Below, piece after piece: positions 16,784 to 55,494 of a DNA stretch of 64,000 nucleotides. The stretch is from Thunnus maccoyii (taxonomy: Eukaryota; Chordata; Actinopteri; Scombriformes; Scombridae). Both the position numbers and the translations under genes were made by a program. The stretch lies in assembly GCF_910596095.1 (NCBI RefSeq), contig NC_056544.1, forward strand, positions 13,377,155 through 13,441,154, read 5' to 3'. Under the pieces are notes generated by a model that saw only the letters and a program-made list of their open reading frames with translations, did not search any database and was not told where the DNA came from. Position 1 is the first letter of the stretch. Every line of letters starts with the position of its first letter.

Positions 16784-17804
16784 CTACTGGGGGAGACCCT
16801 GTCCAGTTTGCACACACACAGGTTCGGACTCCGGTCCTCTAATGGCCGCATTCCTGGCCGACACAGAGAAACAGTAAGTGGAGTTGGGGCTCAGGTCAGT
16901 GAGAATGATGCTTTCCCCGAACACCATTAGCTCCTGTGGCTCATGGGAGCTTCCCTGCGGCCTGATAATCAGGCTGTAATGGGATGCGGTGTCTACTTGA
17001 GACCACTCAACAAAAATAACTGTTGACATCGCCTGTGTGACGTCCAGCACGGGAGCTGAGAGGCCTCCTGTTGGGAGAAAAACAAGCCACAGTTGTGAAA
17101 ATGGTCATGGAGGATTTTTTTATGTCTCATACAGATTGAGAAAAACATCTAATAAATGAAATAATGAGGAAAGAATGTGAAGATTGCATGAAAGCAAATA
17201 CAAAGCATCGCTTCCAATTAGCTGTGAAACAGTGAGTCATTAAAAGCCCTCAGTACTCTCACTTTTCAAAAATCACTGCAACAATTAGTGCTGCTTTTTT
17301 TGTTTAATGATTTCATGTATGAATACTTTACTCAGCTTAAATCACCCACAAGTGCTTCAGAGCTTTGTGCAGATATAAAATATAAAGGCTTCAATATTAT
17401 ACAACTCACCATTATCTGGCATTTTTTCACTGAGATCTCTTCTCCTTCGTCCTTGTGTAATCACTAAAGAGAAAGCTTTATCAGTTATTTTGTAAAAAAA
17501 CAAACAAACATGTCTTTTAATTTAGATATTCATACAGGGTCACAGCATCGTCTCCATGCATTCCTACCATTTGTGATACTTTTTGCTTCACTTTCTCCAG
17601 CTGCGTTGCTGGCTGTGATCACCAGGTTTGTGGTAGTGATGTTGGACAGAGAGCAGGACAGCCCTGCAGTGCTGCACAGCTGTGCCTCAGGCGAAACACG
17701 GTTGTCGTACACAGTGTAGGTGGTGGCAAACACTGAGGCGTTCCACGAAACTGTGGCGAAGGACCTGTTACCGCTGTACACCACACCTGATGGTGGACAA
17801 GGAG
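16784..17804 (-). CDS. large fndc7-type gene: C-terminal exons with polybasic site
   Basis: Exon 17568-17804 is an atypical, shortened FN3 module that has lost the second, fifth and sixth cysteines. Exon 17410-17463 (54 bases) encodes VITQGRRRRDLSEKMPDN, with an RRRR-D furin-type site. Exon 16784-17067 encodes a final ordinary FN3 module (LSPNSTYCFSVSARN) and ends GLPQ-stop. The equivalent short exon of the compact gene encodes VISRGRRSVD-stop, so the tail exon is shared but only the large gene carries an FN3 module after it. Confidence 0.75.
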
Positions 17805-20800
17805 CTGGATGAAGAGAAATGAGAGTGTTGTGGTTACTTAAAGCATCTCTAACTTAAAATTTCTCTATGACATTATATATTTATGACATAAGCAACAAAA
17901 AAATATTGTAGTGTCAAAGTGAGACATAATTGTAGTCATACTTGATCTTATATTTTGCATTTCTTATTTTTATTATATGCATCTGGTTTTAGTGAGTTGC
18001 CCTGCATGCTTTTTTATATGAGAACACCGGTGAGTGATTGGATGACACACACCCTTTCACTCAGGATTGGCGGTCTGGACTGAGTTCCTTGACTTTTGGC
18101 TGAGTGTGAGAGGTGAACGGAGGTGGACAAGCAAGGGAAGAAAAGTGAAACTTGGAGACATGGGGAGCGACGGATGTGAGAGGGTTCGCTCCACAGAAAA
18201 TAGGTTGCAGTTGGTCGTGGGAACCTGAGGACCGAGACTACTCGTCGAAGCAGCGTGGATACACCGGATGAAAGGTACAGCTGGGACGAGGAAGCAGACA
18301 GACCACAGCGGGACGAGCCAGGCGTCGCCGACGGAGACTTGGTTCAACGCGCACTATTATGATAAGTAACAGAATGTGAAACAGGCTACTCTGAGGGCGT
18401 GTGTGTGCTAGTGGTAGTCATATGTCACTTGATTGAGGATATTTATTTTCCTCCTCCTACAGCGGCTTCGTATACAAGGTCCCGGAAGAGGCGGCGTGGC
18501 TGGAGCAGAGGAGCCAACCACTGCAGGACTTCCTTTCTCCTTGTGTCACAGAGAACTTGAGTATCCCCCTTCCCTTACCTATTTATTGGCCCTCACCATT
18601 GGAACAGACATTTTAAGGACTTTTTTTTATTCCATTTTAAATATTCTTGGTTTCCACAAGCTTCTTTTAACATAACTCATTTTTCGCCCTGTTTTAAATA
18701 CTTGTGAATAAAATTCCTGAACTGTCACGATGCATGCGTTGTATTTTTTAACAGTGGAAATTCATGCTGGATTTTTAAAAGAACCTAACAATTGTGTGAC
18801 AGTAGTGTAAAATGTAAAACCATGTTTGAACAGTAGCTTGAATCCAAAGTGTAATCTACCTGTTGTTTTATTAAGAGGCACTGATGGATCACTGGTGCCA
18901 GCAGCATTCCTGCTCTCCACTGTAGCAACATAGGACGAACCGCAGGGGAGGGGAATCTCAAAGTACGTCCTGTTTGTCCAGTAGGAAGAGAGATCGAACT
19001 GGGCCTGGCTGTCTCCCAGAAGACTTCCCGTTAACTTCAGTATGTACTCGGTGTCCCTGCAGGTGATCTGCGTCCAGCTGAAATGCATTACCTGGATCTC
19101 CGTCTGCATCGGCATCAGCTGTACCTGTATGGCATCTGGAGGACAAGGAGCTGAGGGAGAGACGGGAAGTTCAGACACAAGCCAAAGCCACAAATTTCAA
19201 TCTTTGCATGCGTCACCTATAGGCTACCTGCTCCGCTCTGCAATGGGTCACTGAAGGAGCTGTTGCATGTCCCATCTGAGGCCTGGACGGAGAAATTGTA
19301 GACTGTTCCACAATCAAGACCCTCGATAATGCAGGTGGGATTAGTGCTGTGACAGTACAGCATGTCTCCGTTCTCTGCTTGAGCACAGCCATAGTAGTCT
19401 ACAGCATTATCTCTGCGCATCCATGAGAGCAGTGCAGACTGATTGTTACAGTGGAACGTAACCGAGACACCATCTGGCTGGCAGGGACCTGGACAGAAAG
19501 AAAAACTCTTCATAACTCCTCATCAAAGTGCTGAATCCAGTATTTTTTTAGTCATGCTGTGTCTCTTGGACATTAAATCACTTGTGTGTATAAAGCACAT
19601 AAGGGACAAATACCTGTGTTGAGTGTTGCATTTTGACTGGCCTTGCTGGAGCAGTTCTCATGGCTCGCAGTCACAAATACTGTATACTGCTGGTCACAGT
19701 GGATCTCTGACAGGCTGCAGTTACTGGAGGTGGTGTTACAAGTATGCACGTGTCCATCTGCACCCATCGCAACAACGTGGTAGGTTTCAGCAACTGGAGA
19801 GCTGGTCCAGGACACTAGGGCGCTGTGGTCCTCACAGGAGGCGTTGACCATCACATCTCTGGGTGGACAGGGCTCTGCAAAGAGCAAGAAAAGTCAGCAA
19901 TAGTCAGCTTGGAATCAATTACAAAGGTTTTCTGATGAGATTTTAAAATACTTTATCATCTATACTAGTGGTTAACATTATTGGGATTTATCAAGATAAA
20001 TTTGTGAAGTTGTGAGATGATTTATGCTACAGGAAAGAGGAAAAAACAAAGGTCTTCTTCATGAATTTACATTCTTTTTTCCTTTTTTTTGGCGTTTTCT
20101 CTGAACTTTGCATTTTTCTTGGGAAATGTTGGGTTTTTTTCCTCTTTTGGCCTCTTAACTATTAATTATATGAAACAAGCCGATAAGGCGAAATCACTCT
20201 TGGATCTCTATGAGTAGAAATGCTTACAACTGCAAGGGGTTGCAAACATGGCTCCATTTAACACAAGTGAGATGTTAGTGGTATGTAGAAATTTTACAGA
20301 TACTGAATTCTATGGAAAGTTAGATGTTTATGAACACATACTGTGTATTGATAGATTACACTCTTGTTTTTTCAGTCACCCTGTTGTAAAAATAACCAAT
20401 CTACTCTATACAGTCTTCTTAATCAATATTTTAAAAAAATGTTTTATAGTGCTCTGCACAAAACAAATGAAATTAACTATGTACCCATGCTAATTCTGTA
20501 AGGTGGACTCCTCAAACTGCTGCACTGGTCTGATGATGCAGCAACAATGATGGTGTAATGGAGGTCACATCGTGCTCCGTGCAGGGAGCAGCTGGTGCCA
20601 GTGTTATTGCAGGACAGGTAGGTGTGGTCACTAGCTTCAGCTGTGGCAGTGTACACTGTGTTTCCCTCTCTGCCCTCCATGAGATCCCAGACAACGAGGA
20701 TGGAGGAGTTGTGGCACTGAGGGAAGGCTGTGATACCAGAGAGGGAGCAGGGGGCTGCAGGAAGAGACAGATTTCAGTACTTGACACTGCAGCATGTATG

Positions 20801-23800
20801 GTTTTTATGTTTTACTCAAGAGTGGAATATTTATTTTGAATGAAAAATAGCAGAGAAGTATTTCTTTCACAAAGACAGAAATGTGTTACCTGTCTGCAGT
20901 TCGATGGTGGCACTAGGCTGACTCTCACACTCGCTGTTTTTAGCAACAACACTGAAGTTATAGAGTACACCGCATGCCAGGCCTTCCACCTCGCAGGTAG
21001 TGTTTGTGGAAGTGGTGCAGTTGGCTGTGTAGTCCTCTCCACCTACTGCTGACACAGTGTAGCTGTCCGCCCCTGGGGCGGCATCCCACGATATCCAGGC
21101 TGAGTTGGTCACACAGTCAAGGTTGCCTCTAATTCCCTGCGGCTGGCAGGGAGCTGGAAAGAAGACATGAATATTAAGTTGGTGACTGGCTGGATGGATG
21201 GATGGATGGATGGATGGATTTTTACAGTTTTCATACCTGCCATGATGCTGTGGGTTTGGCTGTGCTGGCTGCGGCAGTCTCCTCTGACAGACGTGACTTC
21301 AACAGTGAACGTATTTCCACAGGTCAGATTGCTGATAGAGCATGCCGTGTTTGTGGTGTTACATGACTCGCTGCTTCCTCCGTTTTCTGGAGTTACTGAA
21401 ACCAAAAAGTACTCCGCTTCTCTGGTGGCATCCCAAGAAATTGTCACATCATTTGACAAGCAGTTGACCTGGGAACTCAGGTTCTGAGGTGGGCAGGCGG
21501 CTGGGAGTAAGGAAAGTAATTTGATTACTCAGCTTCAAATTTCAAGTTGAAATGTTTGGTATTTCCATCATATGAGTATAACTTACCTGAGCTGAACACC
21601 AGAGCCTGGCTGGGGATACTTGAGCAGTTGTCATCCATCGCGACTACTTGAACAGAGTAGCGGCTGCCACATGTGAGGTTGTCAAGATTACAGGTGAGGT
21701 CAGAGGTCTGGCAGCTGGCGTTGCTATGACTACTGTAGGCTGTCACTGAGTACTGTACAGCACCCAGACTGGCAGACCAGGACACAACAGCAGTGTTGTT
21801 GGCACAGTCCATCACCGCTGAGACGTTAGTGGGAACACATGGCACTGCAGATAAACAAGAAGGTAGGAACGGGTACATGAGTAAAAACATCATTGAGTGG
21901 GTGAATTCAAGTAAAGCAATTGTTCAAGTGACTATGGGCTGCTGAAAATTACAGTTTAGAATAGCTTCATGGGTAGTAAAGGAATAGTTCATCCCAAAAA
22001 TAAGTCAGATACTCAATTTTGTGCCTTTAAATCTCAGTCATCTTACTTCAAGTTAAATTATCTGTGAATTTATCTTGTACTGTACTAATGTATATTGACA
22101 TATTGTAAAATATAGAGCAATATATTACAAATTGCTGTGGATTTGAATACATGAAAAATATACAGTATTTAGCAAATACATCATCATTATTGTTCAATAA
22201 TATAATACAAAAATATAATGGACATAAATAATTGTTTTTGGCCATGGTAAATACACTGAAAATATATAGTAATATTTTACACTATGTATTAAATACGGCA
22301 ATAATTGATATTCTCTGCAATATATATATTTGGGATATATAAATAATAAATCTGAACATTTCAATGAAACATTATCATCTATAAACAGTCAAGTTTCTGC
22401 CAAAAGTTATGGAGTATAGAAATCTTCTTGAAAAGTCATAATAAAGGGTCTGAAAGAAACTTCTTTTCACATAATTGGTCCCCTGGAAAGTATGACATTC
22501 TTTTTTTTTTTTTTTTTTTTTTTAAAAAAAAAGCTGTTTTATTCACTCTTAAAAGCCGTCCCTGTTCCATTTCTTTTGAGGTTTTCATACAGTGTCCTCC
22601 AGCCATTTTTAACAGAAAGAAATCATCTGAATAATATGAACAGGAATGAAAAACAGGAGAAATAAAAAATTATATCACATAGTTCTTGAGTTAGTAACTA
22701 ATCTGCTGTTTTAGGAAGTGCCCACATGTTTTAGCACATTTATGATTAGATTGTGTTTTATGAAACTTTGTTATGTTATGTTATTAACAATGACATATGG
22801 CATATATATTCCCTTCTGACAACCATTTATCCCTCACCTGACTGCAGACTGGTAGTTAGACTGGAGGTGACGTTACACTGCTGGTTAGAAGCTGTGACGG
22901 ACACAGAGAAATTGTGCCCACAGTTCAGACCAGGAACGCTGCATTTATTAGAGTCGGACATGCACACGTTTGAGATGCCAGAGTCAGTCTGCATGGTGGC
23001 CGTGTAGTAGTCTGTCCCATTACTGGGCTGCCAGGTTACCATGACGATGCTAGAGAGGCAGTCCTGCATGGTAGAAACTCCTGCAGGCGGGCACGGCCCT
23101 AATGGGAAAAGACATACAAGTTAATTTAGTTTCAGCTTACTTCTACTGTTATATTTCAGTTATTTCTTCATCTGTTTGCATCTACATATGAGCCAAACTC
23201 ATATCTGACTCTTTGACATGAATACTGTGCATGTCAGAGGTGTGTAACCTACATGTCTGTATGGAAGCAGGTGCACTGGGGTGGCCTGGACAGTGCTGGT
23301 TATGAGGTGTGACTGTGAGGCTGTAGTTTTGTCCACAGATGAACTCAGAGAAGTACGCTGTGGTGACATTAGTGGTGAGCCCAATTGATCCGTACCCTCC
23401 CTCAGCGGAGACCATGTACAAGTTTGTCCCATTACTTGCATCCCAGCTCAGGGAAACGATTTTCATATCGCAGTTCACAGAGGTAACCAAATTCCGGGGC
23501 ACACAGGGATCTGAAATAAAAACAAAGATAATGGATATACTGTATCAGAAATCTTCATCCACAACAGATAATTTCAGTGATTCTGGAAATCCAAGCACTT
23601 GTAAGTTTATTCTTACAGCACTTTCCGTGACAAAATGTAATTACCCATATGGATGACAGAGCTGTTGCTGGGCAGACTGGTGCAGTTGTCAACTTTTGCT
23701 CTCACTACAACAGTGTACTCCTCCCCGCAGTGCAGGTCCTCCCAGGTGCAGGAGGTGGTGTTAGTGAGACACTGGTGGGTGTGTCCATCAAGTCCAGTAG

Positions 23801-26800
23801 CTACGGCAACATATGTTTCAGCGCCATCACTGGGCCCCCAGCTAACAGATCCCATGTTGAACTCACACTGCACGTAGGTGGTCACATCGCGGGGGACACA
23901 TGGAGCTGAGGATGGAGAGTGGATGTGATACACATGCAGAGAAAAACAACACTCTTTAATGTTCGCGTGGATTGTGGTGTAAGATGTGAGATCGTACTAG
24001 TTTTGAGGAAGGCAGGGCTGCTGGGGATGCTGTCACACTCGCTGCCTTGTCCTTGTACAGTCACACTGTAGTTCTGTCCGCACGGCAGAGCAGCTGACAG
24101 AAGCATCTGGGTCGTATTGTAGCTCTCAACATATCCGAGGCTTCCTGTGGCTGTAATTAGGTAATTCACTACACCACTTGCCCGGTGCCAGGAGATTTGG
24201 ACCTCCTCGCTGTGACAGAACGCCTGAGCAGACACAATGACAGGCTGGCAAGGCTCTGAGAGGAGCAAAAGAAAAGAAAAACAGGAAAAAGGAGATAGAA
24301 ACCATAAAGATGATTGTCAGAGAGGAATAGGGCAAGTGGTACAATACAGTAGAAGCACTTAGACTCTTTACTTCAGTAGAATTTCTACAAGAGCTGAACT
24401 TATTAGTCCATTAAACAATTAGTAGATTGATAAAAAAAAAAAAAATCTGCAATTATTTTGATCATTTTATCATTTCTGTTCTGTAGCTGCCAAAATATAT
24501 TTAGAGGAGTAAAAGATACATATTTCTTAAATGAAAATATGGAAAATACCAGTATAAGAGAAATGTCACAAAGTTATACCTAAGTGTAAATGTAATTAGT
24601 TACTTTCTACCCCTGAATAAGACAAACAAAAAGGAACCTTTTAGCATCTGCGGTACCTGTCAGGATGAACACTGTGTGACTGGCCTTGCTACAGCAGCCT
24701 TCAGTGTGTGCTGCGACAGTAAAGTTGTACATCTCTCCGCAGGTGAGACCAGGGAACTGACAGGTAGAGCCTGTAGAGTTACACATCTGCACCTCCCCTC
24801 CTGATGCCTTGACAGCTCTTGCTTTGTAGAGTTCAACATCAGACCTCTCCTCCCAGGACAGGACAGCAGTGCGGGAGCCGCACTGCAGGTCAACAGCCAC
24901 ACGCTGTGGGGGACACGGACCTGAGGAAAAGATTTGTTGAAGAATAACAGTCAAACCTTGAAGAAATAAAACCCAAACTAACATGATGTGTGAGGATTTT
25001 GACAGACGACTGACGTGTGGTGAGGTTAGCATGCGTCGGTGCTGTGAGGCTGCACTGCTTGTTGCTGGCGGTGAGGCTGAGGTTGTAGGTTTCCCCACAA
25101 TTTAAATCTGTCACATTACAGCTGTTCTGCTGAGTTGTACACAAGGTCTGAAGACTTCCACTGACAATGGCTGTCAGGGAAAAGTTTGCTGCACCATAAG
25201 TAGCGTTCCAGGACACCACAGCAGCACCCTCGGAGTTACAGTCGACCTCTACCTCTACCTCTGTCGGCAGGCACGGAGCTGGGGAAAGAGCATGAGTATG
25301 TTTAAGAACAGGCAGAAGTAAAACTTAGAAAAGTGTATTTAATATGTGCAAATCTATATATATTTAGTATGTCTGTACCTGATGTAAGAGAGATCACTGT
25401 GCTGTCAGAGCTGTTGTACCGCTGTCCCAGAGCTTTGACCCACACGTTGTACACTATGCCACACATCAGTCCTGAGACAACACAGCTGGTTTCTGTGTCT
25501 GTGCCACTACAGGAAGTTAAGTGGCCATTTTGGTTGTCAAAGTAGGCGACGTAACCCACAGCGAGGTCGCTCTGCTCCCAAGAAACAGTCGATGTAAGTT
25601 GTTCACACGCCACATTGGCCTGAATGTTGGTGGGTGGGCAGGGCTCTGAATGAAGGGAAAGCATACACATTTAAGTATACCCATACAGGCCTATATCAGT
25701 ATAAAGTGAAATAGTTTAATTACACATTCCTTTCTGATCAGATGACTGACCTGTCATGACGTGGTAAGTTTCAGAGGTCACAGAGTTGTTGCAGGCCACG
25801 TTGTGTGCAGCCACAGTGACGTTGTAGATCTGACTACACTGCAAGCCAGTCAAGGAGCAGTGGGTGTTGTTGGTGGTGTTACAGGTGACTGTCAAACCCT
25901 GGTCAGTCACAGCCTGTACAGAGTAGGATTTGGCACCTTTTGTTGCACCCCACAACACCTGAGCACTGCCCATATTGTAGTTGACAGAGAGATTCATGGG
26001 AGCACAGGGCTCTGGAGGGAGAAAAGGTTAACAAAAGGGATAGTTACATTCAGTGTGAAAGAAATTACAAATGGTTGGTCAGCCACATTTTAAGACACAA
26101 AATTTACACACACAGATACTTTACCTGTGGTGAAGTATCCTGCCATTTGGCCGGTGCTGTTGCAGGTTTCTCCCACAGCCTTTACAGTGACGTTGTATTC
26201 CTCTCCGCACTGCAGAGACGTCAGCTGACAGTTGGTGTAGTTGGCAGTGCAGCTGGCGGTGTGGCCCGACAAAGCTGTTAGCTCAGAAACATAGGACACA
26301 GCTCCAACGCTGGGTTGCCAGGATACGGTAGAAGAGTAGGTCTCACAATCCATTACAGCTTCGATGGCGTTCGGCTGGCAAGGCCCTACGGGGTTAAAAA
26401 GAATATGACTCAACATTTACAGCTGCGAGTGTCTTTTGATAATGACCCAGTCTGACAATCAGATACTAAAGAGACAAATTGACCTAACAATCTATGGTGA
26501 AGAGAATCAAAGCCCACAGATTCACTTACTAATGATTTAGAGCTTTCAACTGCATCTCACAGTCTTCATTCAGCTCCATTTTCCATTTCGCTACTAAGTG
26601 GAGCTTTAAGGGCTCAGATTCTCTTCACTATATATTGTTCCCAAACACCAAGGGTCAAGGGTGAACATCCATGCACAAATTAATTCAACATAGTGTATGT
26701 GTGGACCTGGATAAGGCTGCACCAGCTACTGTAAGTAAATCAGGAATATACTGTATTTATTCATTTTTAAATCAATTTCAGAGGCTAACAATAATTAATG

Positions 26801-29800
26801 TACATTGGTTATTGATAAATCTGATCTAGTCTGATACAATCCCTACATAACGACAATTAAACTTCCCAATGTGTGTGAATAAAACCCAGAAAAACTGAAA
26901 TTCCTTCACTAGGAGCAATTGGCAACCCCGGATTATGAGTTGAAACAAGAGAAACATGATGTAAACAGCAGAAATGCAACACTAATGTCAACTTGTTCTT
27001 CTCTCAATTAATAGGACAAGTGGTAGTGCCAAGAATGCAAACCAACTCTGACTCAGTGTGCAAGAACAATGTGACTTGCGACAATGGGAAAAAAACACAA
27101 AACACACACATTAGAATTGGGAAAACTCCCATAATATACAAGATGGTTATCTGGTCCAAACATTTTTGTGTAATTGTAGCATGTTTCAAAGCATTTCAAT
27201 AGTCTGCCACGGTGATTTGTTTGATAATATTATGGATTTAGCATGGGAACAAGTCCTACACATAGTGGCTTTAGTCTGCATCATTACTTAATAATTAAGG
27301 GGTCATCGTCGGCTAGCTGGAGTACAGTTGGAAAATTAAACATCACTGCCTTTAAAGATGCTGGTGCTTGCGTAGGTGATTGTACTGGTGTCTGTATGCA
27401 TTAGAAGATGTATGTAATATGTGCAAGTCTATATATATTAAGTATGTCTATACCTGATGTAAGAGAGGTCACTGTGCTGTCAGAGCTGTTGTACCGCTGT
27501 CCCAGAGCTTTGACCCACATGTTGTACACTGTGCCACACATCAGTCCTGAGACAACACAGCTGGTATCTGCATCTGTGCCAACACAGGAAGTTAAGTGGC
27601 CATTTTGGTCGTCAAAGTAGGCGACGTAACCCACAGCGAGGTCGCTCTGGTCCCAGGAAGCGGTCGCAGTAAGTTGTTCACACACCATGTTGGCCTGAAT
27701 GTTGGTGGGTGGGCAGGGCTCTGAATGAGGGGAAAACACACACATGTATTATGAGAAAAAAAAGCCATAGCTGTAAATATGTTCACATATGTCTCTTCCT
27801 GATTAGGTAACAAACCTGTCATGAGGTGTTTGGTCTCAGAGATCAAACTGTCGCAGGCCAGGTTGTGTGCTGTCACAGTGACGTTGTAGATTTGACTACA
27901 CTGCAGGCCATTCAGGAAGCAGCTGGTGTTTGTGGTGTTACAAGTGACTGTCAAGCCTTGCTCAGTCACAGCCTGGACAGAGTAGGATCTGGCGCCGCTT
28001 GCTGCATCCCACAGCACCTGGGCAGCACTCACGTTGTAGTGGACAGAGAGATTTGTGGGAACACAGGGCTCTGGAGGGAGAAAAAGGTCAATTTAGTTTT
28101 AGTTTTGTTCAAGCAAAATACCTCAAGAACTGTGGTCATCATCATTCACTATGGACACAGACAACATAAGTGATACTATAGCAGATCTCATACACAATAT
28201 ATACATGTGGTGAGCTATTCTCCATCTATAAAATTGTTATTTTATATGATATATTCATTTCATTATTGTTTTATGGTTACATAAGCACAAATTTGGTCAC
28301 TGGCATAATTTTCTTTTCTTTTTATTAAATCTGTACTGATCTCCTCCAAGAGGAAATTAAAGTTTCCTTGCCTCATTCTTAACAAAATTATCAACACTGT
28401 AGAGATTTTTTCAAAGTAGATAATTACCATCACTGGGTGTTAACTGGGTTAATGTGACTCCCTAAGCCAAAACTGCCAAGTAGGCCAGTCATACTTTGCA
28501 GCCAAACATTGCTCAAACCCACAAAACTGGAATTCAAATTTAAGTGGACATAACAAATATGTAATTTATATTTCATATGTGTGTAAATTTGGGGGAAATG
28601 TGTAAAATTATGCAGAAGTGATCTCAGATATTTCCATTTGCTGAAATGGTGCAGCCATAAAAAAACTGTATTGGGTTTGGACTGTTGGATTTGAAGTCAC
28701 TCAGTGTAAACAACATAGTATTCTGTAGCTTCACTGAAGCTGGAACAAGATGACAAAGATTTTCTCAATCCTAAAGCTATTTCAGTGGGAAAACAGGGGA
28801 AAGCTGTATTTTAAAAGTATTTTAAAAAGTATTAATAGTGCAAGGTTTGAATAATACTCACCTGTAGTGAGCCTGGCTGGGGCACTGGCAGGACCAGGAC
28901 AGCCAGTATTCATTGCCTCCACAACAACAGAGTATTCCTGTCCACAGACCAGGTTGTTTAGGTTACAGGATGTGCCCATCCCACTGCAGGAGGAGTTGTA
29001 TCCATTGATGGAGGTTGCCTGGACGCTGTAGGCTGTGGCTGCAGCAGCTGTGTTCCAGCTGACCAGAGCTTTACGTGTGGTACAGTTCATTTCAGTGGAT
29101 ACATTGGTGGGAGGACATGGAGCTAGACAGGAAGAGAGGTACAGGTGAGGAAAAGAGGTGAAAATAGAGGAGTTGTCAGAGTTATAGTGAGGCAGAAAGT
29201 CTGATATCTGATGAAGACACTAAATATACTTTAAAGGAAAAGTTAGACATTTAGGATAATGTGCTTTTTCACTTTCTTGCTGAGAATTACAGGAGAATAT
29301 AGACACTCTCATGTCTAACAGTGGTATCAATCTTCTCATCTAAGTCTTACCAAGAAAGTGAGTAAGTATATTCCCCAGTGAATAAGTAAGAATAAATTAA
29401 TAAGTATATTTTTTAGGGTTAGGGTTAACGGTTAGGTCTTTTTTTAGGCCAATGTCTGCACATGTGTTCTTATGTTGTTGTTGCAGTAATTCCCCCTGTG
29501 GGAGACAATGAAAGTGACCTTCACCAAAACATCAAACTATTCTTTTAAGGAATAACCATCAAAGTAAATTTATTTCTTTATACCGGTGTGCTTCTCCATA
29601 GGGGTGCTCATCTCGCTCATGCATACATTGGTGTGTCCCATCACAGTGAAAGAGTAGAGTTGACCACAGCTCAGGTTCAGGAAGGAGCAGCTGCTCTCAG
29701 TGGAGTCACAGGAGGAGTTAACACCTGAAGCAGATGTGGCTTTAACTGTGTAGTTCTGAGTCGTGCTGCTCTGGCTCCACTTTACTGTCATGATGTTGGA

Positions 29801-32541
29801 GCTGCAGTTCTGCTCAACAGTGGTGTTCTCAGGTTTACAGGGAGCTACAGGCAGTTGAAAGAAGCAGAAATGCTCCATTAGAGTCATATCATTTATCCTT
29901 CAGCAAAAATTTTGTTTTATATTTATTTTATATTGAAGTTATAATGATGAAAGAGCTGCACTCACCAGACTGAACCTTGTAGTCGGAGCCCGCAATGATT
30001 TTGCAGTGAATGGAGGAGGAGGTGACGGCCACCTCATAGACCTGACCGCATCGCAGATCATAGATGGAGCAGGAGTTGGATGTCGAGTTACAGGAGGCTC
30101 TGTGTCCGTCAGTGCTGATGGCCCAGGCAGTGTAGTTGTCTGAGCCTGGGGTCTGTGTCCAACTCACAGTCATCACGTTGGTGTTACACTTTAACTCTGC
30201 TACAACATCGTCTGGGAGACAAGGAGCTATGGGGGAGAGTTTGATTACAGGTGAGCTAATGTGCTGCCAGTATAGCCATATAGAGGAGTTATGAGGATAT
30301 TTGAGGAGTCTGAAATGAGTAAATAAACTGTTCACTGTCTCCATATCTTACCAGAGTCAAACTGAATATCAGTGTGTTTAGTGCTGTTGCAGCTCTCTGT
30401 GGAGGCCACCAGCGTAGCTGAGTATGAGCGGCCACAGTGAAGTTTTACAGCACAGGAGGTGTCATTGGAGGAACAGGATGCTACGTGGCCGTGCTCTCCT
30501 GTCACCTCGACAGTGTAGAAATCTGCTCCACTGCTCTCAGCCCAGGAGAAATTGCCTTTGTTTGTCCCACAGTCCATACGAGCAGTGAAGTTTGTGGGCT
30601 GACAAGGAGCTGAAGGAGGAAGAAAACTGACACTTAACGCATGTTGAAGCGGTTGTCTTTTGATTTCTACTCCAGCAGGTCAATCTCTTGCAGCCGTTGC
30701 CATAGAAACACGCCTTACCTGTGCTTATTTCTATGGGCGGGCTGTAGCTGCTGCGGCAGGTTCCATCCAGTGCTGCGATGCGGAAAGCATATCTCTGTCC
30801 ACATAGCAGGTTGGTCAATGTGTGTGAGGTATTAGCGGTGGTGTGCACTGAAGGAGGGAGTGTACTGCCTATCCTCTCAGTGTGCAAGGTGTAGGTGGCC
30901 CCAGGCACTGGACTGTGGTCCCATGTGAGGGTAAGTGTACTGGTATCACAGCTGACCTGGCCCGTCAAGTTAGTAGGCGGACACAGAGCTAGGATAATAC
31001 AGAGGGAAGTTGAAAACTACATCTGTGTATTGATATTTTTGCCATTCCTTCTGATTAAACCCTCCTTAAGAGAGAAATATCATGTCAGAAGCTGCTCATT
31101 ACAATTTTCTCTCACCTGTTCTCAGTTCCACAGCTGAGCTTGGCTCGCTCCTGCAGCCCCTGTCCACAGTTACAACAGTGACAGCGTAGGTTTCCCCACA
31201 GTGGAGGTCAGTGAAATTGCATGAGCTTGAATAGTTAGAGCTGCAAGTGTGATTGTGTCCGTCATCTGCAGTTGCTGTTGCTATGTACATCTCTGCCCCA
31301 GTCACATGGGACCAAGACACAGTGCTGTCCTTGCAAGCTGGAGACACGATGACGTCACTGGGAGGGCAAAGACCTGGAGAAAAGGGAGTGAAAAGGGTTT
31401 AATGTCTTACTGTCAATCTTTTTCTTTGAACTCAAATGTAGAGTTGTGGATATATAACTTCATGTCTTTCTGCACCTGCTCTAAAGCTGTAAGCTGCACT
31501 TTGGGTTCCAACACATGATTCAGAGTACGGTGTGACAGCGATGCTGTAGGTTTCACCGCAGTGGATGTCAGGTACTTGGCAGCTGGTAGCGTTGGTGTGG
31601 TAGTGATGCATGTGTCCATCTTGGCCAGTCGCTGTCACATTGTATCCTACAGCACTGGGGCTTCCTGCCCATGACACCAGGGCTGAGTGACTGAAACACA
31701 CCAGAGTGGCGCTGACATTCTCCGGGGCACACGGGACTGGAGAATCAGAATCAGATTTATTTGTCAAGTAGCAAATACAAAGAATTCAATGTGGTCCAGA
31801 TGTCAATAGAAAGAACAATAAACATGAACATTAAACAACAAACATAAACACAAACATAACAGTGTAGAAAGGGACAGTAATTTACATTTCTGTGTAGTAG
31901 GAGTGTACTATGTGCTTGCATATTGACATGATAAGACATGATAAAGACTATGTGTGTTCAAAAAAGCAGAATATAAATAGAAGTATGAATACCAATGTAG
32001 ATAAATGTGAGTGTAAATAAACTATGTGTGTGTGTCTATTAACAAGATATATATGTACAGTAACTAAAAAATCAAATCTGGATAGATAGAGCCAGCCTGG
32101 CTCTATCCAAAGGTAACAAAATCTGCCTACCAGCACCTCTAAAGCTCTATAAGATTCTATTATATCTTATTTGTCTAGTTGTTCCAACAATTTAAAAATA
32201 TGTATATAAAAACAGTATTTCTATATCTTAGCTGTTTTATAGTTATATAGTATATAGTATGTTACCTTTGGACAGAGCCAAGCTAGCTCTGTTTCCAGTC
32301 TTTATGCAAATTTTTTAAATTCCGCCTGTTTTCCACACCTCTGTAACTATCAGTTCATCATTTTTGGAGGATTTTTGAGTAATGTTGTGGCAGAAAGAGG
32401 TGGATCAAAGAGGAATCAGTTCGTTGAGACACAGGTGTCAGATGGGGAATCTCTTTATTCACAGCGGCCCTACTAACAACGTAGTCAGAGATATCTTGCA
32501 ACGTTACCGAATGTGACATGCCTTTTTATACTGAAAACAGG

Positions 32542-32582
<41 letters not shown>

Positions 32583-38500: not shown

Positions 38501-41500
38501 GGACTGAAGAAATGAGACAATGAATTAGAGAATTACATCACAATAAATAACGAGGAAATTTAAGCAAATGTTGGTGAATGAGGAGAAAAAAGATAGATAC
38601 TGATAGATAGAAAAAAGCCATATTAACCACTGAATCATACATTGCATAGTATTAGCTTAAAAGTCTAGTGTTTGAAAGTCCACATTTGATCTCTTTGTCA
38701 TTTGCCTCTTTGTTTGCATTCATAGGAATAAACAGGCATGTGTGCTAGACTCTAGATCATTTACCTGGACGGACTTTGTGTGTGTCTCCTTCACCTTTTC
38801 ACTTTCCAGACTGATATTATAGCTGACCTTTGAGATAACCCCCTGACTTCAATAGACTGTAAAGATTAGCTGGTGTTGGATGGCTGTTCTTGGTGACTAA
38901 TGGGAGGGTGTGTTTCACCTCCCAGCATGAGAAAAGAGCACAGGACACAATAGGAGGAACCTACACAGCTTCCCACAGGACAGACTTATGGGAAAGGTTT
39001 GTGATAAAGTATGTCTAGAAGAGTTCGTGTGTGTTACAGTGAGAGGCACCTGAGGTAAAATGAGAAGGTGTTTAGCGTATGGGAAACATAAAGGCATGTG
39101 ATGAGGCACAGGGAAAGGTGGAGGGCTTTAAAAAGGTAATGGCAGACAAATAAAAGGCAGGTTTGTAGTTTTCCACACGAGCAGGTGCTCCACTCACCTG
39201 TCTCGAACAAGCTGGAGGCATTGGAGGTGCTCTCGCAGTCATCAGAGATGGCCGTGACATGGACTCGGTACTTCTCACCACAATTGAGCCTGGTGATCTG
39301 GCAGCTGGTGGAGGCTGATGTACAGTTAAGCGCTGCGCCTGTGCCGTCGACAGCCGTGGCCCTGTACAAGTTGGCCCCAAACACCAAATCCCACGTAACT
39401 GTCACCATGCCGCTGGAGCAGCTGTAGTCCACGGAGATGGTCGTCACCGGGTTTATGGCTGAAGGAGTTAGAAAAATGTAAACAGATGACACATTATTTG
39501 CTTTTTTACCAAGATTTTGAGAATTGCTTCTAAACCTGGTTTTGAACTGATGAAATGTTTCAGATGTCTGCTACTTCTGTTTTGGGACTCCAGCTGTTAA
39601 ACATGGTAAAATACAGCGGATATACAAATGATGTATATGTGTGATCACTGTTGAAAGTACTTTTTTACACAGTATTGTCCTCCCGACTCCCAAATAAGTC
39701 TATTTTGATTTCTGTTGTTGGAGTTTTATAACAGTTTGTTCATAAGAAATTTGACCTCTCTGGCATCTATTTGACCCCAGATTTAAGTAAAGTCATGTAG
39801 GATCACATATTCATACATGAATGAGTTTTGCAAATATATGTGTTCATGCACAGCCCATAATATGTATAAATCAGGAAATATTTGGTGCAATACCAATGCA
39901 TTATGGGAATTTCTGTATTTCTTCATCAAATCAGTTTGTGGTGAAGGGAAGGGTTTCCACTTCTATACTTTTCTACATATTGGTTGATTTTGCAGTTACG
40001 ATGATTATTTTGACACATACAACAGTGGGACCCCAAACATCAACATCAACAGAACATAAATGTTTAAGTTTGAATATATTTAATCAGACAAATCGATTCT
40101 GTTGCTCAAATACTCACTAGAGGTAGTGTGTGTAACATTAGAAGGCTCCCCAGGCACCAAGAAGATGTTGACCGATGATACTCCCACTGTGTATGTGGAG
40201 CAGGGCTCCAGATTACTGATATCCATCGATGTAGTTGAAGTGTTTCTGATGACTGGGGGGTTGCTGAGGTTGTCGTTGTCTTTCACACTCACTTGATAAA
40301 GCAGGACTTTGCTCACAGGGTTCCATGTTACTCGAGCTGTGCTCTTTCCCGTTGGTACAAGACTCACACCAGTTGGTGGCTGCACCACTTTTAGGATAAA
40401 AATACAAGTGTTGATATAATGTATAAATTACAAATCACTTTTTTAGCATAGATCTGCTCGCACATACTTACAGCTAAATAGCTTTCTGAGTACCAAGCTT
40501 CTAATTCTGTATAAAATAAATGATCCCCTCTGAATAAAATCCAGTGAAACCAGCATCTTATGTGGACTTACACGTCATGATTGTCTTTATATTACTTCTG
40601 GAACCTCGTCCAGCATTGTTGGAGGAGTAAACGTAACAGTTGTAAGTTGTAGAGGGAGTCAGGCCGTCCACCTGTCCACCAAGCGTTGTGAAGGTCCAGT
40701 TGTATTTCTTTGCGGGAAAACTAAACAACTCCTCCACAAACAAGTTGTAGCTGTCCGCCCCAATCACGCTGGACCACTCAAACCTTATAGACGTACTTGA
40801 AACAGCTTTGGAGAAGGTGATCTGAGATGTGGCGGGCACTGTGGGAATGTAAGATAAGGCATTTAATATCATCAATGGGATTCTTCTTATTTATTTAGCT
40901 GTTGACTTTTTTATTAAATTGTCTGTACCTGTCATGGTGTTTTCAGTGTCTGTGCACACAACAGTGTAAAACTCAAAGACCTTCAGTGTGACTTGATAAA
41001 CATGTCCTGGTCTTAATCCCTGAATCAGCCTCTGTGTGCTGGGGGCAGACTGCATCACCACCACTGGGGCGATACTGGTAGAGTTCACAACTCTCAAGTC
41101 CAGCAAATAAACTGAAGCTCCAGTGTAGCTGCTCCAAATCACATTCAGTGTTGATGCTGAAGGAGACGTCACTGAAACAATATTACATCCTGAAAAAAGA
41201 GAAAATGTATGATTTGATATGTTTTTATACAATAAGGAAAAGAGCAACAGGTTGTAATCTACTATAAAATACTCTGAGACAATAAAAATACTGAAGATAT
41301 TATTATTAAAGCATAAGGACACCAATATAAACTTACTACTGAATGCCACCAATATTATGTATTTTGAAATCTTATTGTTATACTTTTTAATCAAAAAAGA
41401 TAAAAATTAAGTTAATTTGGAGATTTTTCTACATGCTTTAAACTTAATATTATAGTGATTTTGTTTTAGTGGTAAATGCCACAAATGTACAAATACAACT

Positions 41501-42610
41501 GTTTGTAGTTAAATTTTAAGCATAATTATTATTCTATGTAATATAATTATTATTATTGAATTGATTTTTATGTTATCCAAATTAACAAACTAATTTTTCT
41601 GCAAAATATAATTTACATGCTTGCAAAACATCCCATCCCACACTCAGATTTGAGAAATAAATCCATTTCCATAGATGAACTTAAGTAACATCAAAAGCAG
41701 ATTTTTTGTAGAAAGACAGAAAAAATAAAAATAAAAATGTTAAAGAAGTTTCAGCACTAAGAAACATTTTTAATGGTTGCATTGATTTCTTGTCTGGGAA
41801 GTTTTTTAATCTATAGTGGCCCCTCTGGTGATGAAACCTCCTCAGCAGTTATTATCATTTAATCAATCATATCTATAGTCAGTCTAATGAATTCCAGGTC
41901 TTCCAGTCAGCTGCAGTGTGTCTGTGTGGTGAAAATGTTGGAGGTGAACCATTCGAATCACATCCACATACTGACTCACTGGTCAGCTGGAGGGCTTCTT
42001 CTTAACTGGCATTTATAAACTACCAGAACATTGAACCACCAGCAGCAACATTTACATGATTTTTGTCATTTTCTATACTTACTCAGGTATTTTCTTTAGT
42101 TTTTCAATATGGTTTATGTCTGTAGTTTTCCAATGACGGAGCCCATATCATTGAGAAAGTAAGTTTTGGTCAGATTTCTTACAATTTTTACATGTTTTGA
42201 GGCCACAGTTCAGACAATAGGATGTTATACTGTATTATGAGCCATAAATCTGTTATGATGAAATATACAGTTATAATGTAGATAGAAATTCACTGTGCCA
42301 ATGTATGAATGGAAAACATTATCGTCCATCTAACTTGTCTTATTGATGATGGAAACAAAACAAAACAAAACAAAAAAAAAAACAACTACAAGTCATTGAA
42401 GTCACTTATTGTATTAGATTAGAGCAAACTCACCTGTAGCCATAACATGTTGCATCTAAAAAAAAATTTAAAAGTGATTTAATGAGAGAATTATTACAAA
42501 ATGATAACACAATAAAAATAAAGCTGAAAAGAAACTGAATAAAAAAGTATAACTACCTGTATGACAGACAATAGGATGACTGATGAATAAAACGTCCACA
42601 TCGTATCCAT
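16784..42610 (-). CDS. giant secreted FNDC7-like protein with 43 FN3 modules
   Basis: 46 coding exons (high to low): 42557-42610, 42434-42455, 40929-41189, 40572-40838, 40118-40387, 39198-39458, 38243-38503, 37737-37997, 37330-37590, 36907-37167, 36304-36564, 35942-36202, 35546-35803, 34342-34608, 33983-34240, 33624-33887, 33256-33516, 32868-33125, 31476-31736, 31116-31373, 30719-30988, 30352-30609, 29966-30226, 29584-29844, 28862-29122, 27816-28070, 27454-27720, 26125-26385, 25751-26011, 25379-25645, 25015-25278, 24657-24920, 23998-24255, 23645-23905, 23253-23510, 22838-23098, 21587-21844, 21237-21500, 20890-21153, 20485-20754, 19614-19874, 19228-19488, 18860-19150, 17568-17804, 17410-17463, 16784-17067. 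The sum is 11,418 nt, exactly divisible by three, giving 3,805 residues and one stop. Every FN3 module is one phase 1-1 exon of 237-291 nt. The product is predicted to be secreted and heavily N-glycosylated (many NxS/T). No membrane segment is seen after the signal peptide. Zebrafish has fndc7 'related sequence' genes of this kind; no exact symbol is claimed. The model could still be split by unseen promoters, but no second signal-peptide exon or internal terminal exon was found. Confidence 0.85.
17069..17409 (-). other. intron before the last exon of the large fndc7-type gene
   Basis: AT-rich intron between the polybasic exon and the last FN3 exon; nothing recognisable seen. Confidence 0.5.
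18055..18735. repeat. possible interspersed repeat inside an fndc7 intron
   Basis: The intron 17805-18859 contains a block of different composition: a GC-richer, CpG-containing half (18060-18350), a pyrimidine tract with an acceptor-like end at about 18450-18462, a second GC-rich piece and an AT-rich tail with AATAAA at 18707-18712 on the plus strand. This looks like an inserted retro-element or LTR-like sequence. The minus-strand ORF at 18057-18347 has no family resemblance. No terminal repeats or target duplication were found. Confidence 0.3.
18860..39458 (-). CDS. large fndc7-type gene: array of 38 cysteine-rich FN3 modules
   Basis: 38 consecutive exons, FN3 modules 4 to 41, share the plan xPCxPxNV - C - SW - GAxxY - C-x6-C - LxCGxxYxVxV - C. 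Cysteines sit near residues 3, 14, 45, 52, 59 and 74 of an ~87-residue module. The ordinary proline turn before the F-strand tyrosine is replaced by CG. Most modules have all six cysteines. Exceptions: module 4 (exon 39198-39458) lacks the first; the exons at 27816-28070 and 25751-26011 lack the second; those at 27454-27720 and 25379-25645 lack the sixth; those at 30719-30988, 23998-24255 and 23253-23510 lack the third and fourth; 31476-31736 lacks the third; 18860-19150 is divergent. Confidence 0.85.
19875..20484 (-). other. fndc7 intron without recognised features
   Basis: About 610 bases of AT-rich intron with several T-runs near 20070-20140. A plus-strand ORF at 20248-20493 is AT-biased and has no family resemblance. 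Confidence 0.5.
21191..21220. repeat. (GGAT)n microsatellite
   Basis: Seven units of TGGA/GGAT in the short intron between the exons 21237-21500 and 20890-21153. Confidence 0.9.
21845..22837 (-). other. AT-rich fndc7 intron with a T23A9 tract
   Basis: A 993-base intron. At 22501-22532 there is a run of 23 T followed by 9 A. Around 21980 the words taaaggaatagttcatccca resemble the end of a common fish interspersed repeat, but only a short fragment is present. Nothing else seen. Confidence 0.5.
24256..24656 (-). other. fndc7 intron with an A-run
   Basis: About 400 bases of intron with an A13 run at 24433-24445. The words before it (ttaaacaattagtagattgat) faintly resemble part of the repeat at 34856-35178. 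Confidence 0.4.
25379..26017 (-). repeat. duplicated two-exon FN3 block, copy B
   Basis: Exons 25751-26011 and 25379-25645 with their 105-base intron closely match exons 27816-28070 and 27454-27720. The second exon of each pair agrees at about 78 of 90 residues. Similarity continues into the introns, including some 40 bases past the last donor (atgtgcaa[g/a]tctatatatatt). This is a recent tandem duplication relative to the rest of the array. Confidence 0.85.
26386..27453 (-). other. fndc7 intron with a small foldback element
   Basis: This 1,068-base intron separates the two copies of the duplicated block from each other together with exon 26125-26385. It contains a short palindromic element at 26486-26639. 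The remainder is AT-rich with no gene. ORFs at 26993-27202 are without family resemblance. Confidence 0.5.
26486..26639. mobile_element. small foldback element (MITE-like)
   Basis: Left end aacaatctatggtgaagaga and the reverse complement of the right end (gaacaatatatagtgaagag) are alike for about 30 bases, and gagctttcaa / gtggagcttta words pair further in. This is about 154 bases, typical of a short palindromic DNA element. No clear target duplication. Confidence 0.55.
27454..28076 (-). repeat. duplicated two-exon FN3 block, copy A
   Basis: Exons 27816-28070 and 27454-27720 with a 95-base intron. Partner of the block at 25379-26017. In both copies the first module lacks cysteine 2 and the second lacks cysteine 6, so these losses predate the duplication. 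Confidence 0.85.
28071..28861 (-). other. fndc7 intron without recognised features
   Basis: About 790 bases of AT-rich intron; no gene, microsatellite or clear transposon seen. Confidence 0.5.
29231..29548. mobile_element. palindromic fish MITE, degraded copy
   Basis: Both ends match the family seen at 46590-47115 and 49486-49948: left ttaaaggaaaagttagacat, and right atcaaactattcttttaa; inside are ggtatcaatcttctcatct and accaagaaagtgagtaag. The central part has a gggttagggttaacggttagg stretch. Confidence 0.65.
32082..32320. mobile_element. palindromic fish MITE, fragment
   Basis: Contains the family words agcctggctctatccaaagg, aacaaaatctgcctaccagc and acctctaaagctct, followed in inverted order by gttacctttggacagagcca and tccagtctttatgc. 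The outer ends are missing. Confidence 0.65.
32542..32581. repeat. (TG)n microsatellite
   Basis: About 20 uninterrupted TG units in an fndc7 intron. Confidence 0.95.
34609..35545 (-). other. fndc7 intron with two DNA-element remnants
   Basis: 937 bases. A terminal scrap of the palindromic MITE family lies at 34694-34733 (gcgtatttcccaaaatgtca then aactatttctttaa). A second element occupies about 34856-35178. The rest is AT-rich. Confidence 0.55.
34856..35178. mobile_element. MITE-like element with GCAGCTCTA end
   Basis: Begins with inverted GATTAAT / ATTAATC words (cgattaatctgcc, caatcgatcaattaatcg) and ends with aatgaatcattgcagctcta, an end I recognise from abundant teleost interspersed elements. 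The element is AT-rich and non-coding. The family name is not assigned. Confidence 0.5.
38504..39197 (-). other. fndc7 intron without recognised features
   Basis: About 690 bases. ORFs at 38915-39109 are unsupported. No repeat identified. Confidence 0.5.
39459..40117 (-). other. fndc7 intron without recognised features
   Basis: About 660 bases of AT-rich intron; nothing recognisable. Confidence 0.5.
40118..41189 (-). CDS. large fndc7-type gene: FN3 modules 1-3, ordinary type
   Basis: Three exons (40929-41189, 40572-40838, 40118-40387) with ordinary FN3 tyrosine-corner motifs: LRPGHVYQV, LTPSTTYNC and LEPCSTYTV. They lack the six-cysteine pattern of the modules that follow. The compact neighbouring gene also begins with three ordinary modules (LSPNTVYTM, LQPYTGYRL, LEAGTTYCI), so this is likely the ancestral N-terminal part of the family. 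Confidence 0.8.
41190..42433 (-). other. intron between micro-exon and first FN3 exon of the large fndc7-type gene
   Basis: 1.24 kb, strongly AT-rich in 41200-41720. No exon, repeat or gene recognised; a CAAAA-type simple tract lies at 42354-42385. Confidence 0.5.
42434..42610 (-). CDS. large fndc7-type gene: signal-peptide exon and micro-exon
   Basis: Exon 1 coding part 42557-42610 encodes MDTMWTFYSSVILLSVIQ, a typical hydrophobic signal peptide, ending in phase 0. Exon 2 (42434-42455) is 22 bases, encodes MQHVMAT plus one base, and sets the phase-1 frame used by all later modules. The compact fndc7 gene has the same arrangement (57-base signal exon, 19-base micro-exon), which supports both models. 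Confidence 0.8.
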
Positions 42611-55400: not shown

Positions 55401-55494
55401 AAAATCAGTGTAAAACAAGGAAATGATCATCCCTTACCTCTACGAAGGCCGATAAAAGCAAAAGTTTTAGCATCTTTAACTGTGTTGTCCTCAT
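46493..55494 (-). CDS. fndc7: FNDC7, compact paralogue with nine FN3 modules
   Basis: 13 coding exons (high to low): 55438-55494, 54895-54913, 53435-53692, 52972-53232, 52133-52390, 51784-52038, 51247-51501, 50102-50359, 49172-49429, 48414-48668, 47309-47572, 47162-47191 and 46493-46524 (stop TAA). The total is 2,460 nt, in frame, encoding 819 residues. Exon 1 encodes the signal peptide MRTTQLKMLKLLLLSAFVE; exon 2 is a 19-base micro-exon. Exons 3-11 each encode one FN3 module. The first three are ordinary (LSPNTVYTM, LQPYTGYRL, LEAGTTYCI) and the next six are cysteine-rich (VECGQNHSV, LQCNTAYSV, LPCGSTYEV, ITCGTNYSV). Exon 12 encodes VPCPGSNAGM. Exon 13 encodes VISRGRRSVD then stop. Nine modules match ordinary vertebrate FNDC7 (about 730 residues in human, from memory), so this is the likelier orthologue. 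It is predicted to be secreted; its function is unknown. Confidence 0.85.
46590..47115. mobile_element. palindromic fish MITE, full-length copy
   Basis: About 526 bases, lying in the intron before the last coding exon of fndc7. Left half: ttaaaagaataattccacat, ggccaattagcttagcttag, cataaagactgtaaacaggg. Right half in inverted order: tccagtctttatactaagct, ggctaagctaattcctggct, tcaaactattcatttaa. It is a long palindrome with no coding capacity. At least five other copies or fragments lie in the fndc7 introns (29231-29548, 32082-32320, 34694-34733, 49486-49948, 51561-51711). Confidence 0.8.
47573..48413 (-). other. fndc7 intron without recognised features
   Basis: 840 bases of very AT-rich intron (T-rich tracts at 47960-48050). 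No gene or identified repeat. Confidence 0.5.
48669..49171 (-). other. fndc7 intron without recognised features
   Basis: About 500 bases, AT-rich; nothing recognised. Confidence 0.5.
49486..49948. mobile_element. palindromic fish MITE, full-length copy
   Basis: About 463 bases. Left: ttaaaggaatagcttgacat, gccgcttagcttagcttagc, agctagcctggctctgtcca. Right, inverted: ttacctttagacagagccag, gctaagctaagctaactggc, aaatgtcaaactaactttaa. Inserted in the fndc7 intron between the exons 49172-49429 and 50102-50359. Confidence 0.8.
50360..51246 (-). other. fndc7 intron without recognised features
   Basis: About 890 bases. Short ORFs at 50768-51077 on both strands are unsupported. No repeat family recognised. 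Confidence 0.45.
51561..51711. mobile_element. palindromic fish MITE, internally deleted copy
   Basis: Only the outer parts remain: tttgggaaatatgtttacat and gagttggatgagaagattga, then the inverted atcaatcttctcaccaaact and gtatttcccaaagtgtaaaa. Two gatatcaatcttctca / tgagaagattgatatc words form a tight hairpin in the middle. Confidence 0.7.
52391..52971 (-). other. fndc7 intron without recognised features
   Basis: About 580 bases. Overlapping ORFs on both strands at 52539-52843 have no family resemblance and lie between two well-supported exons. Confidence 0.5.
53693..54894 (-). other. fndc7 intron carrying a hAT-like MITE
   Basis: 1.2 kb between the micro-exon and first FN3 exon of the compact fndc7 gene. 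It contains the element at 53859-54193. The rest is AT-rich and unassigned. Confidence 0.55.
53859..54193. mobile_element. hAT-like MITE with intact 8-bp target duplication
   Basis: A 335-base element with terminal inverted repeats tacggctgggcaacata and (reverse complement of the right end) tagggctgggcaatatgg, flanked on both sides by the exact 8-base direct repeat CTGTCAGG (53851-53858 and 54194-54201). Eight-base duplications and a YARNG-type end are typical of the hAT superfamily. Non-coding, AT-rich, with further atcgatatt / aatattg inverted words. Confidence 0.8.
54914..55437 (-). other. first intron of the compact fndc7 gene
   Basis: About 520 bases between the signal-peptide exon and the micro-exon; nothing recognised. 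Confidence 0.5.

Follow-up and report, generated by a model that had tools for sequence, protein, structure and literature searches.

The giant gene and its compact neighbor

We analyzed a window of 64,000 nucleotides of the Thunnus maccoyii genome (NCBI RefSeq assembly GCF_910596095.1, contig NC_056544.1, here called C12, positions 13,377,155 to 13,441,154 of the forward strand), which carries a giant array of fibronectin type III (FN3) modules and, beside it, a compact gene of the FNDC7 type. Reading frames of the window were taken from stop to stop (at least 55 residues) and scanned with a profile made from the window's own modules, together with a splice-site scan. This gave 51 FN3 matches, exclusively on the minus strand, comprising 42 of the 43 modules of the giant and all nine of the compact gene; module 1 of the giant was absent from the scan output and was put in by direct reading of the sequence. 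The rebuilt gene runs from 42610 to 16784 and has 46 exons, 43 FN3 modules, and 3,805 residues in one frame, figures identical to those of the original prediction, which had also placed one signal-type exon at the start and one stop at the end, where we find them (exons 1 and 46). A signal-like exon and a mini-exon are followed by the FN3 modules, an RRRR-containing mini-exon, and module 43. The modules of the giant are named L01 to L43 from 5' to 3', and those of the compact gene are named C1 to C9. Cysteine positions are numbered on module 23 (C2, C13, C45, C52, C59, and C74), and "six-cysteine pattern" refers to these. The features are as follows, in window positions.

42610-42557, minus: exon 1, start codon and signal-like peptide MDTMWTFYSSVILLSVIQ, phase-0 donor
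42455-42434, minus: exon 2, 22-nucleotide mini-exon, phase 0 to 1
41189-40929, 40838-40572, 40387-40118, minus: L01 to L03, N-terminal type without the six-cysteine pattern
39458-19228, minus: span of L04 to L40, cysteine-rich modules, one per symmetric 1-1 exon
39458-39198, 38503-38243, 37997-37737, 37590-37330, 37167-36907, 36564-36304, 36202-35942, minus: L04 to L10
35803-35546, 34608-34342, 34240-33983, 33887-33624, 33516-33256, 33125-32868, minus: L11 to L16
31736-31476, 31373-31116, 30988-30719, 30609-30352, 30226-29966, 29844-29584, 29122-28862, minus: L17 to L23
28070-27816, 27720-27454 (span 27454..28070), minus: L24 and L25, copy of L27 and L28
26385-26125, minus: L26
26011-25751, 25645-25379 (span 25379..26011), minus: L27 and L28, paired with K33 and K34 on contig C7 (see below)
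25278-25015, 24920-24657, 24255-23998, 23905-23645, 23510-23253, 23098-22838, minus: L29 to L34
21844-21587, 21500-21237, 21153-20890, 20754-20485, 19874-19614, 19488-19228, minus: L35 to L40
19150-18860, 17804-17568, minus: L41 and L42, chain-end type without C13 and C74
17463-17410, minus: exon 45, mini-exon VITQGRRRRDLSEKMPDN with a basic motif, resembling the last exon of the compact gene
17067-16784, minus: exon 46, module 43 (without the six-cysteine pattern; Pfam fn3, E value 2e-9) and the stop codon, counterpart of K54 on C7
16259..16264, minus: AATAAA hexamer, candidate poly(A) signal 3' of the giant's stop
46493..55494, minus: compact neighbor, FNDC7 of ordinary size, 13 exons, 9 modules, 819 residues, ending VISRGRRSVD

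The original prediction had argued for a single gene from splice phase, and its facts stand: all 45 introns are GT-AG (a selection condition for the module exons), the phases match, and the length is divisible by three. As evidence for one gene this is weak, because every module exon is of the symmetric class 1-1 and any subset of such exons joins in frame. The same symmetry would suit an array made of several ordinary-size genes or alternative-promoter units with no single reading frame, and ten introns of more than 600 bp and weak donors (score below 0) at modules 22, 29, 31, and 38 speak for such a split. So do two of the four signal-like ATGs with a donor on the coding strand of the array span: two of the four are exonic, and the two intronic ones (36604 and 24984) read into modules 9 and 30 through the stretch ahead of the acceptor and may be alternative starts of these modules, a point against one undivided unit. 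Against the split, the opposite strand holds 10 such signal-like starts, so the coding strand is not enriched and hidden internal gene starts are considered unlikely, and poly(A) hexamers over 16 to 47.5 kb show no enrichment either (AATAAA, 26 minus and 34 plus; ATTAAA, 23 minus and 22 plus). Furthermore, chain-end features, i.e., the signal exon and mini-exon, the first three modules without the six-cysteine pattern, and the basic C-terminal exon, are found at the two ends of the array only, and the layout recurs in a second giant on C7. Modules 1 to 3 of the compact gene likewise lack the six-cysteine pattern, and its basic 3' exon reads VISRGRRSVD-stop, compared with VITQGRRRRDL in the giant. 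We regard the split as very unlikely; as far as sequence can tell, the array is supported as one large FNDC7-related gene with a signal-like first exon.

The compact neighbor, predicted to have nine modules, does so in our model (modules between 53692 and 47309, mini-exon at 54895-54913). A table row for buffalo FNDC7 gives 13 and 811, taken here as exons and residues, near the 13 and 819 of the compact gene (PMC8615036). With a layout defined on this C12 compact gene, the giant has the same plan, namely, a signal exon and a mini-exon followed by one FN3 module per symmetric exon, and it shares with ordinary FNDC7 the locus and strand of its neighbor and a basic C-terminal exon. It differs in size, with 43 modules and 3,805 residues instead of about nine FN3 modules and about 800 residues, and for this reason we class it as a giant FNDC7 paralogue and not as ordinary FNDC7. 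The original prediction had put it at about five times the size of ordinary FNDC7; a large FNDC7-related gene it is, and the measured ratio is 4.6. It also differs in that most of its modules have six cysteines instead of four and in that an extra FN3 module lies past the basic site.

Membership in the FN3 superfamily is borne out by PF00041 matches and the FN3 fold. Pfam was run on 18 selected frames, 12 of them from the FN3 region, several of which were below the cutoff or without a match (48280-48717, 47301-47627, and 18765-19196); no FN1, FN2, EGF, or fibrinogen-type domain was found among the 18. Four modules gave no match in NCBIfam, a prokaryote library. Tandem FN3 modules are shared with fibronectin, tenascin, and titin, and fibronectin and titin modules are the best-scoring solved sequences for the giant's modules, but the latter bear extra cysteines at their poles. 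Fibronectin, tenascin, and titin mix FN3 with other domain kinds or work inside cells.

The neighborhood also fits FNDC7, with PRP38 exons, GoLoco exons, and a Sec1 gene found around the two loci; we take the human gene order to be PRPF38B-FNDC7-STXBP3-AKNAD1-GPSM2. PRP38 exons lie at 9188-9337 and 12406-12558 of the window, with 14072-14314 just under the Pfam cutoff. GoLoco exons lie 22 to 23 kb outside the window on C12 and others about 1 Mb from the locus on C7, where a Sec1/STXBP-type gene stands about 4 kb from a compact gene. An exon at 62416-62862 of the window looks AKNA-like by eye.

A duplicate locus on C7

New in this analysis is a second locus in the same genome. A genome search with module 35 (E value up to 0.01; counts are lower bounds) returned at least 89 matches, all on contigs C12 and C7, and the C7 region holds a compact gene of nine modules (D1 to D9) and a giant of 54 (K01 to K54), which thus outnumbers the 43 of the C12 giant. 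The original prediction had expected the latter to rank among the longest pure FN3 ectoproteins, and its C7 sister is longer still in modules. Exons were called automatically for 59 of 64 matches; K02, K05, K39, and D1 were finished by hand, and K27 was corrected. The 5' end consists of a 54-nucleotide signal-like exon, MGLLGAIGFSLALVSLTQ, with the same length and phase as on C12, a mini-exon recognized by eye, and K01, and at the 3' end a basic mini-exon with GTRRRRDL is placed as on C12. In two modules, K05 (C7:27558860-27559185, approximately) and K39 (about 2560-2980 of the C7 subsequence that contains it), an intron absent from the C12 copy interrupts the module. K27 apparently ends at a GC donor (a GC-AG intron) near C7 position 27542080.

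The two giants are nearly colinear. A reciprocal-best K partner was found for 36 of the 43 L modules, with a rank correlation of 0.9997; such pairs are 47% identical, compared with 30% elsewhere. Best matches form an increasing run of up to 37 of 43 modules, whereas in shuffles the longest run averaged 10.3 and never exceeded 16. The final pairing, two analyses merged by hand, has 41 ordered pairs, 35 of them reciprocal best: L01-L23/K01-K23 (the end modules L01 to L03 thus matching K01 to K03), L26-L32/K32-K38, L33/K39, L34-L35/K40-K41, and L36-L43/K47-K54. L09, L11, L23, L27, L29, and L33 were paired by position, L33/K39 additionally by the common loss of C45 and C52. An order-preserving fit deviates from this three times, in pairing L25 with K29 (36%), in leaving L43/K54 unpaired, and in leaving L33/K39 unpaired (K39 was incomplete there). 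Thirteen C7 modules are without partners (K24 to K31 and K42 to K46), and on C12 the two without partners, L24 and L25, are a local copy; by these 13 and 2 modules the two giants differ. Since the pairing is nearly colinear, the giant array predates an old duplication.

Both gene pairs have dN/dS (nonsynonymous over synonymous divergence) well below 1. Over 38 of the 41 giant pairs, identity is 46.2%, with nonsynonymous divergence (dN) of 0.51, synonymous divergence (dS) of 1.89, and dN/dS of about 0.27; over 8 of the 9 compact pairs, the values are 54.0%, 0.41, 1.50, and again about 0.27. The dN/dS figures are rough because dS is near saturation (proportion of synonymous differences, 0.74 in unrelated modules versus 0.69). 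Within the array, mean identity is 27 to 32% at module offsets of 1 to 21, and DNA self-comparison shows one recent-looking block, 704 bp at 84%, that joins L24-L25 to L27-L28. The exons of this block are more alike (L24/L27, 86%; L25/L28, 93%) than the intervening intron (76%) and the flanks (81 to 82%), and dN/dS, counted from few changes, is 0.44 for L24/L27. A module tree was of low resolution, with stars on 2 of its 49 inner branches, and served only for a rough grouping of end modules.

The original prediction had suggested that repeat number might change rapidly between species or individuals. Read this way, the giant would be a protein of recognition or immune type, with a repeat number in rapid flux from one individual to the next. 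This reading can point to the 43 versus 54 modules of the duplicates, to the one local duplicated block, and to a fish vibriosis paper in which fndc7 is listed with genes that combine a selective sweep and differential expression. Against it stand the 41 modules paired in order, the mutual divergence of the modules, the single recent block, the dN/dS of about 0.27 in giants and compact pair alike, and the exons of that block being more alike than intron and flanks. Because the modules are so divergent, unequal exchange has little matching sequence to work on. We therefore rejected the idea of an array that arose recently or changes rapidly, and the fast-changing recognition protein is the least probable of the readings weighed here; the giant form looks old and neither newly expanded nor unstable. 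Long FN3 arrays can thus remain near-colinear across an old duplication despite the gain or loss of whole blocks.

The neighbors of C12 and C7 fit a genome-duplication pair, though this is only suggestive because the PRP38, GoLoco, and Sec1 families match other contigs too: GoLoco matches lie on eight contigs, Sec1 matches lie on seven (none of them C12), and a further PRP38 gene lies at 33.0 Mb of C7. When the window flanks were compared with 90 kb of C7, the matches were all repeat-like by eye. The duplication may have been the teleost-specific one.

Cysteines at the module joints

All six cysteines are present in 28 of the 43 L modules (all within L04 to L40, i.e., 28 of 37) and in 41 of the 54 K modules. 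In FN3 modules, the AB and EF loops lie at the C-terminal pole and the N terminus and FG loop lie at the N-terminal pole. The predicted structure of module 23 (predicted local distance difference test score of 96.1) has the FN3 strand order and FN3 matches in PDB; in this model, C2 precedes strand A, C13 follows it, C59 falls between E and F, and C74 lies in the F-G turn. In a comparison with fibronectin, C59 aligns with the proline of KPG and C74 aligns with the glycine of RGD. Bonds between C2 and C59 and between C13 and C74 of the same module were rejected, as by modeled strand order and general loop geometry these residues would stand at opposite poles.

The pattern of loss bears on the partners. 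C45 and C52 were lost jointly in 4 of 45 modules and singly in 1, and C13 and C74 were lost jointly in 8 of 45 and singly in 4 (L24, L25, L27, and L28). The single losses complement each other across their joints: L24 and L27 lack C13, L25 and L28 lack C74, and K33-K34 show equal losses. Joint balance was scored as the count of the four pole cysteines, with a one-column tolerance unless stated. Of all 111 joints, 106 are balanced: for the giants, 41 of 42 (L) and 52 of 53 (K), and for the compact genes, 7 of 8 (C12) and 6 of 8 (C7). An odd count, by contrast, occurs in 17 of 115 modules, namely, 8 of 43, 6 of 54, 2 of 9, and 1 of 9 in the same order. With no column tolerance, the balanced joints come to 105 of 111 and the odd modules to 16 of 115. 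Shuffling L04 to L42 gave a P value of 5e-5, and 2e-4 without the duplicate pair. Cysteine losses thus balance better across joints than within modules, which suggests disulfides between neighbors.

The compact genes (18 modules at both loci) have C13 in 0, C74 in 3, C2 in 10, and C59 in 12 modules, and the stub after their last module holds a cysteine at both loci (PC on C12 and, by eye, TC on C7). In the giant, by contrast, C59 is missing from L42, and the following exon is free of cysteines. On these patterns, each joint would carry a single staple in the compact gene and two staples in the giant.

The same giant gene could instead have its disulfides inside the modules (C45-C52, C13-C59, and C2-C74), which would make it a flexible chain of sturdy beads and not a stapled rod. 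C13 and C59 would share one pole and C2 and C74 the other, by modeled strand order and known loop geometry, and the all-six modules, 28 of 43 and 41 of 54, suit this pairing. The compact modules, in contrast, often keep C2 and C59, at opposite poles, without an intramodule partner; most odd modules find their complement in a neighbor; and a C59 in the last compact module is followed by the stub cysteine, just as both are missing at L42 and the next exon. We hold the bead chain to be unlikely, while giving it real weight.

A stapled matrix rod as the proposed product

We propose, with only a little more confidence than doubt, that the giant is a secreted, heavily N-glycosylated, disulfide-stapled matrix rod, an old tandem paralogue of FNDC7 enlarged in mid-array. 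The middle of the array would have expanded, with the two ends retained. Each typical module would be locked internally by a C'-E hairpin disulfide, C45-C52; one staple, shared with the compact gene, would join C59 to C2 of the following module, and a second, added in the giant, would join C13 to C74 of the following module. Stapled in this way, the product would be a stiff, hard-to-unfold rod of about 140 nm, at about 3.2 nm per FN3 module.

In support of this proposal, the giant has 119 N-glycosylation sequons, compared with 57.9 ± 6.4 in composition shuffles. No C-terminal hydrophobic anchor was found in it, the top 19-residue hydropathy mean being 1.61, within a module. The pattern R-X-K/R-R occurs once in the giant and once in the compact protein, each time in the basic C-terminal exon. 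It recurs near the C terminus of both C7 genes, and the K modules all lack it. Across the four genes, the basic exon carries RGRR, RGKR, RRRR, and RRRR. The furin-type site RRRR ahead of module 43 would permit clipping of the last module.

An elastic or adhesive chain resembling fibronectin or tenascin, whose modules unfold under load or bind integrins, would also have the FN3 fold, and the single RGD of the giant lies in the FG loop of module 36, two columns ahead of the RGD in the tenth module of fibronectin. We rejected adhesion through this motif and think such a chain unlikely: the C7 partner of module 36 has RDD, no K module has RGD, 15% of shuffles yield RGD, and extra disulfides would presumably oppose unfolding.

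Several results weigh against the stapled rod, or parts of it. The C7 giant is known as separate module and end exons and not as one joined coding sequence, and the reciprocal-best order is not strictly increasing because L24 outscores L27 for K33. Five joints are unbalanced (L40/L41, K51/K52, C5/C6, D3/D4, and D5/D6), with L41 and K52 each bearing an extra cysteine near the BC loop. Shuffling only L05 to L40 gave a P value of 0.005, and 0.06 without the duplicate pair; the C7 core shuffle gave 0.06 (K27 was incomplete at that point). With core-shuffle P values of 0.005 to 0.06, the within-array joint evidence is modest, and the in-array signal is largely one ancestral event (L27/L28 = K33/K34). 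Besides, where all four pole cysteines are present, C13-C59 and C2-C74 bonds inside modules fit equally well. The recent pair L25/L28 has a dN/dS of 0.77, from few changes, and the expression data below come from other family members or species, not from the giant.

The likely workplace of the rod is extracellular matrix made by epithelial support cells. Among non-hair cells of zebrafish lateral-line neuromasts, fndc7a is reported to label support cells and fndc7rs4 to show ring expression (PMC6363392), and Fndc7a is named as a neuromast marker in the StaVia report (PMC11328412). These zebrafish genes, fndc7a and the fndc7rs genes, resemble the giant as fish family members with support-cell expression, a comparison by name and expression alone. 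In mouse, a list of genes enriched in neonatal cochlear supporting cells has Fndc7 at rank 8 (PMC5137903). A table row for a suggestive noise-hearing single-nucleotide polymorphism names FNDC7 and STXBP3 (PMC4488244). In the entries that our searches returned, FNDC7 appears little studied, with expression, association, and gene lists and no function, and those mentioning fndc7 contained no description of a giant form; searches on giant FN3 proteins, cupula, and interdomain disulfides returned nothing on the subject. Database gene predictions of the giant may well exist.

A bolder version, which we offer tentatively and think possible but doubtful, is that fish have kept the duplicate giants as a covalently stapled FN3 rod since an old, perhaps teleost-wide, genome duplication, with two intermodule disulfides at nearly every joint, derived from the single staple of FNDC7, and a conserved furin-type site near the end. 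If so, stapled giants would represent a new type of structural rod in the extracellular space, perhaps belonging to the sensory cupula or a comparable gel. The conserved pair of giants and the checkable disulfide scheme make the FNDC7 family testable.

Some minor observations concern other parts of the window and genome. Two identical head-to-tail units of 191 bp at 58553-58934 reflect either a tandem duplication of very recent date or an artifact of assembly. Frames at 10213-11474 (minus) and 57495-57902 (plus) resemble, by eye, remnants of retroelement genes for integrase/RNase H and reverse transcriptase. A stretch of 235 columns, 68% alike, occurs in introns of both the giant (32090-32310) and the compact gene (49618-49842) and is probably a dispersed repeat. 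Elsewhere, contig C11 has two FN3-rich regions, at 0.2 to 0.3 Mb and 1.60 to 1.69 Mb, with open frames of 5,802 and 5,750 residues, which are presumably titin-like.

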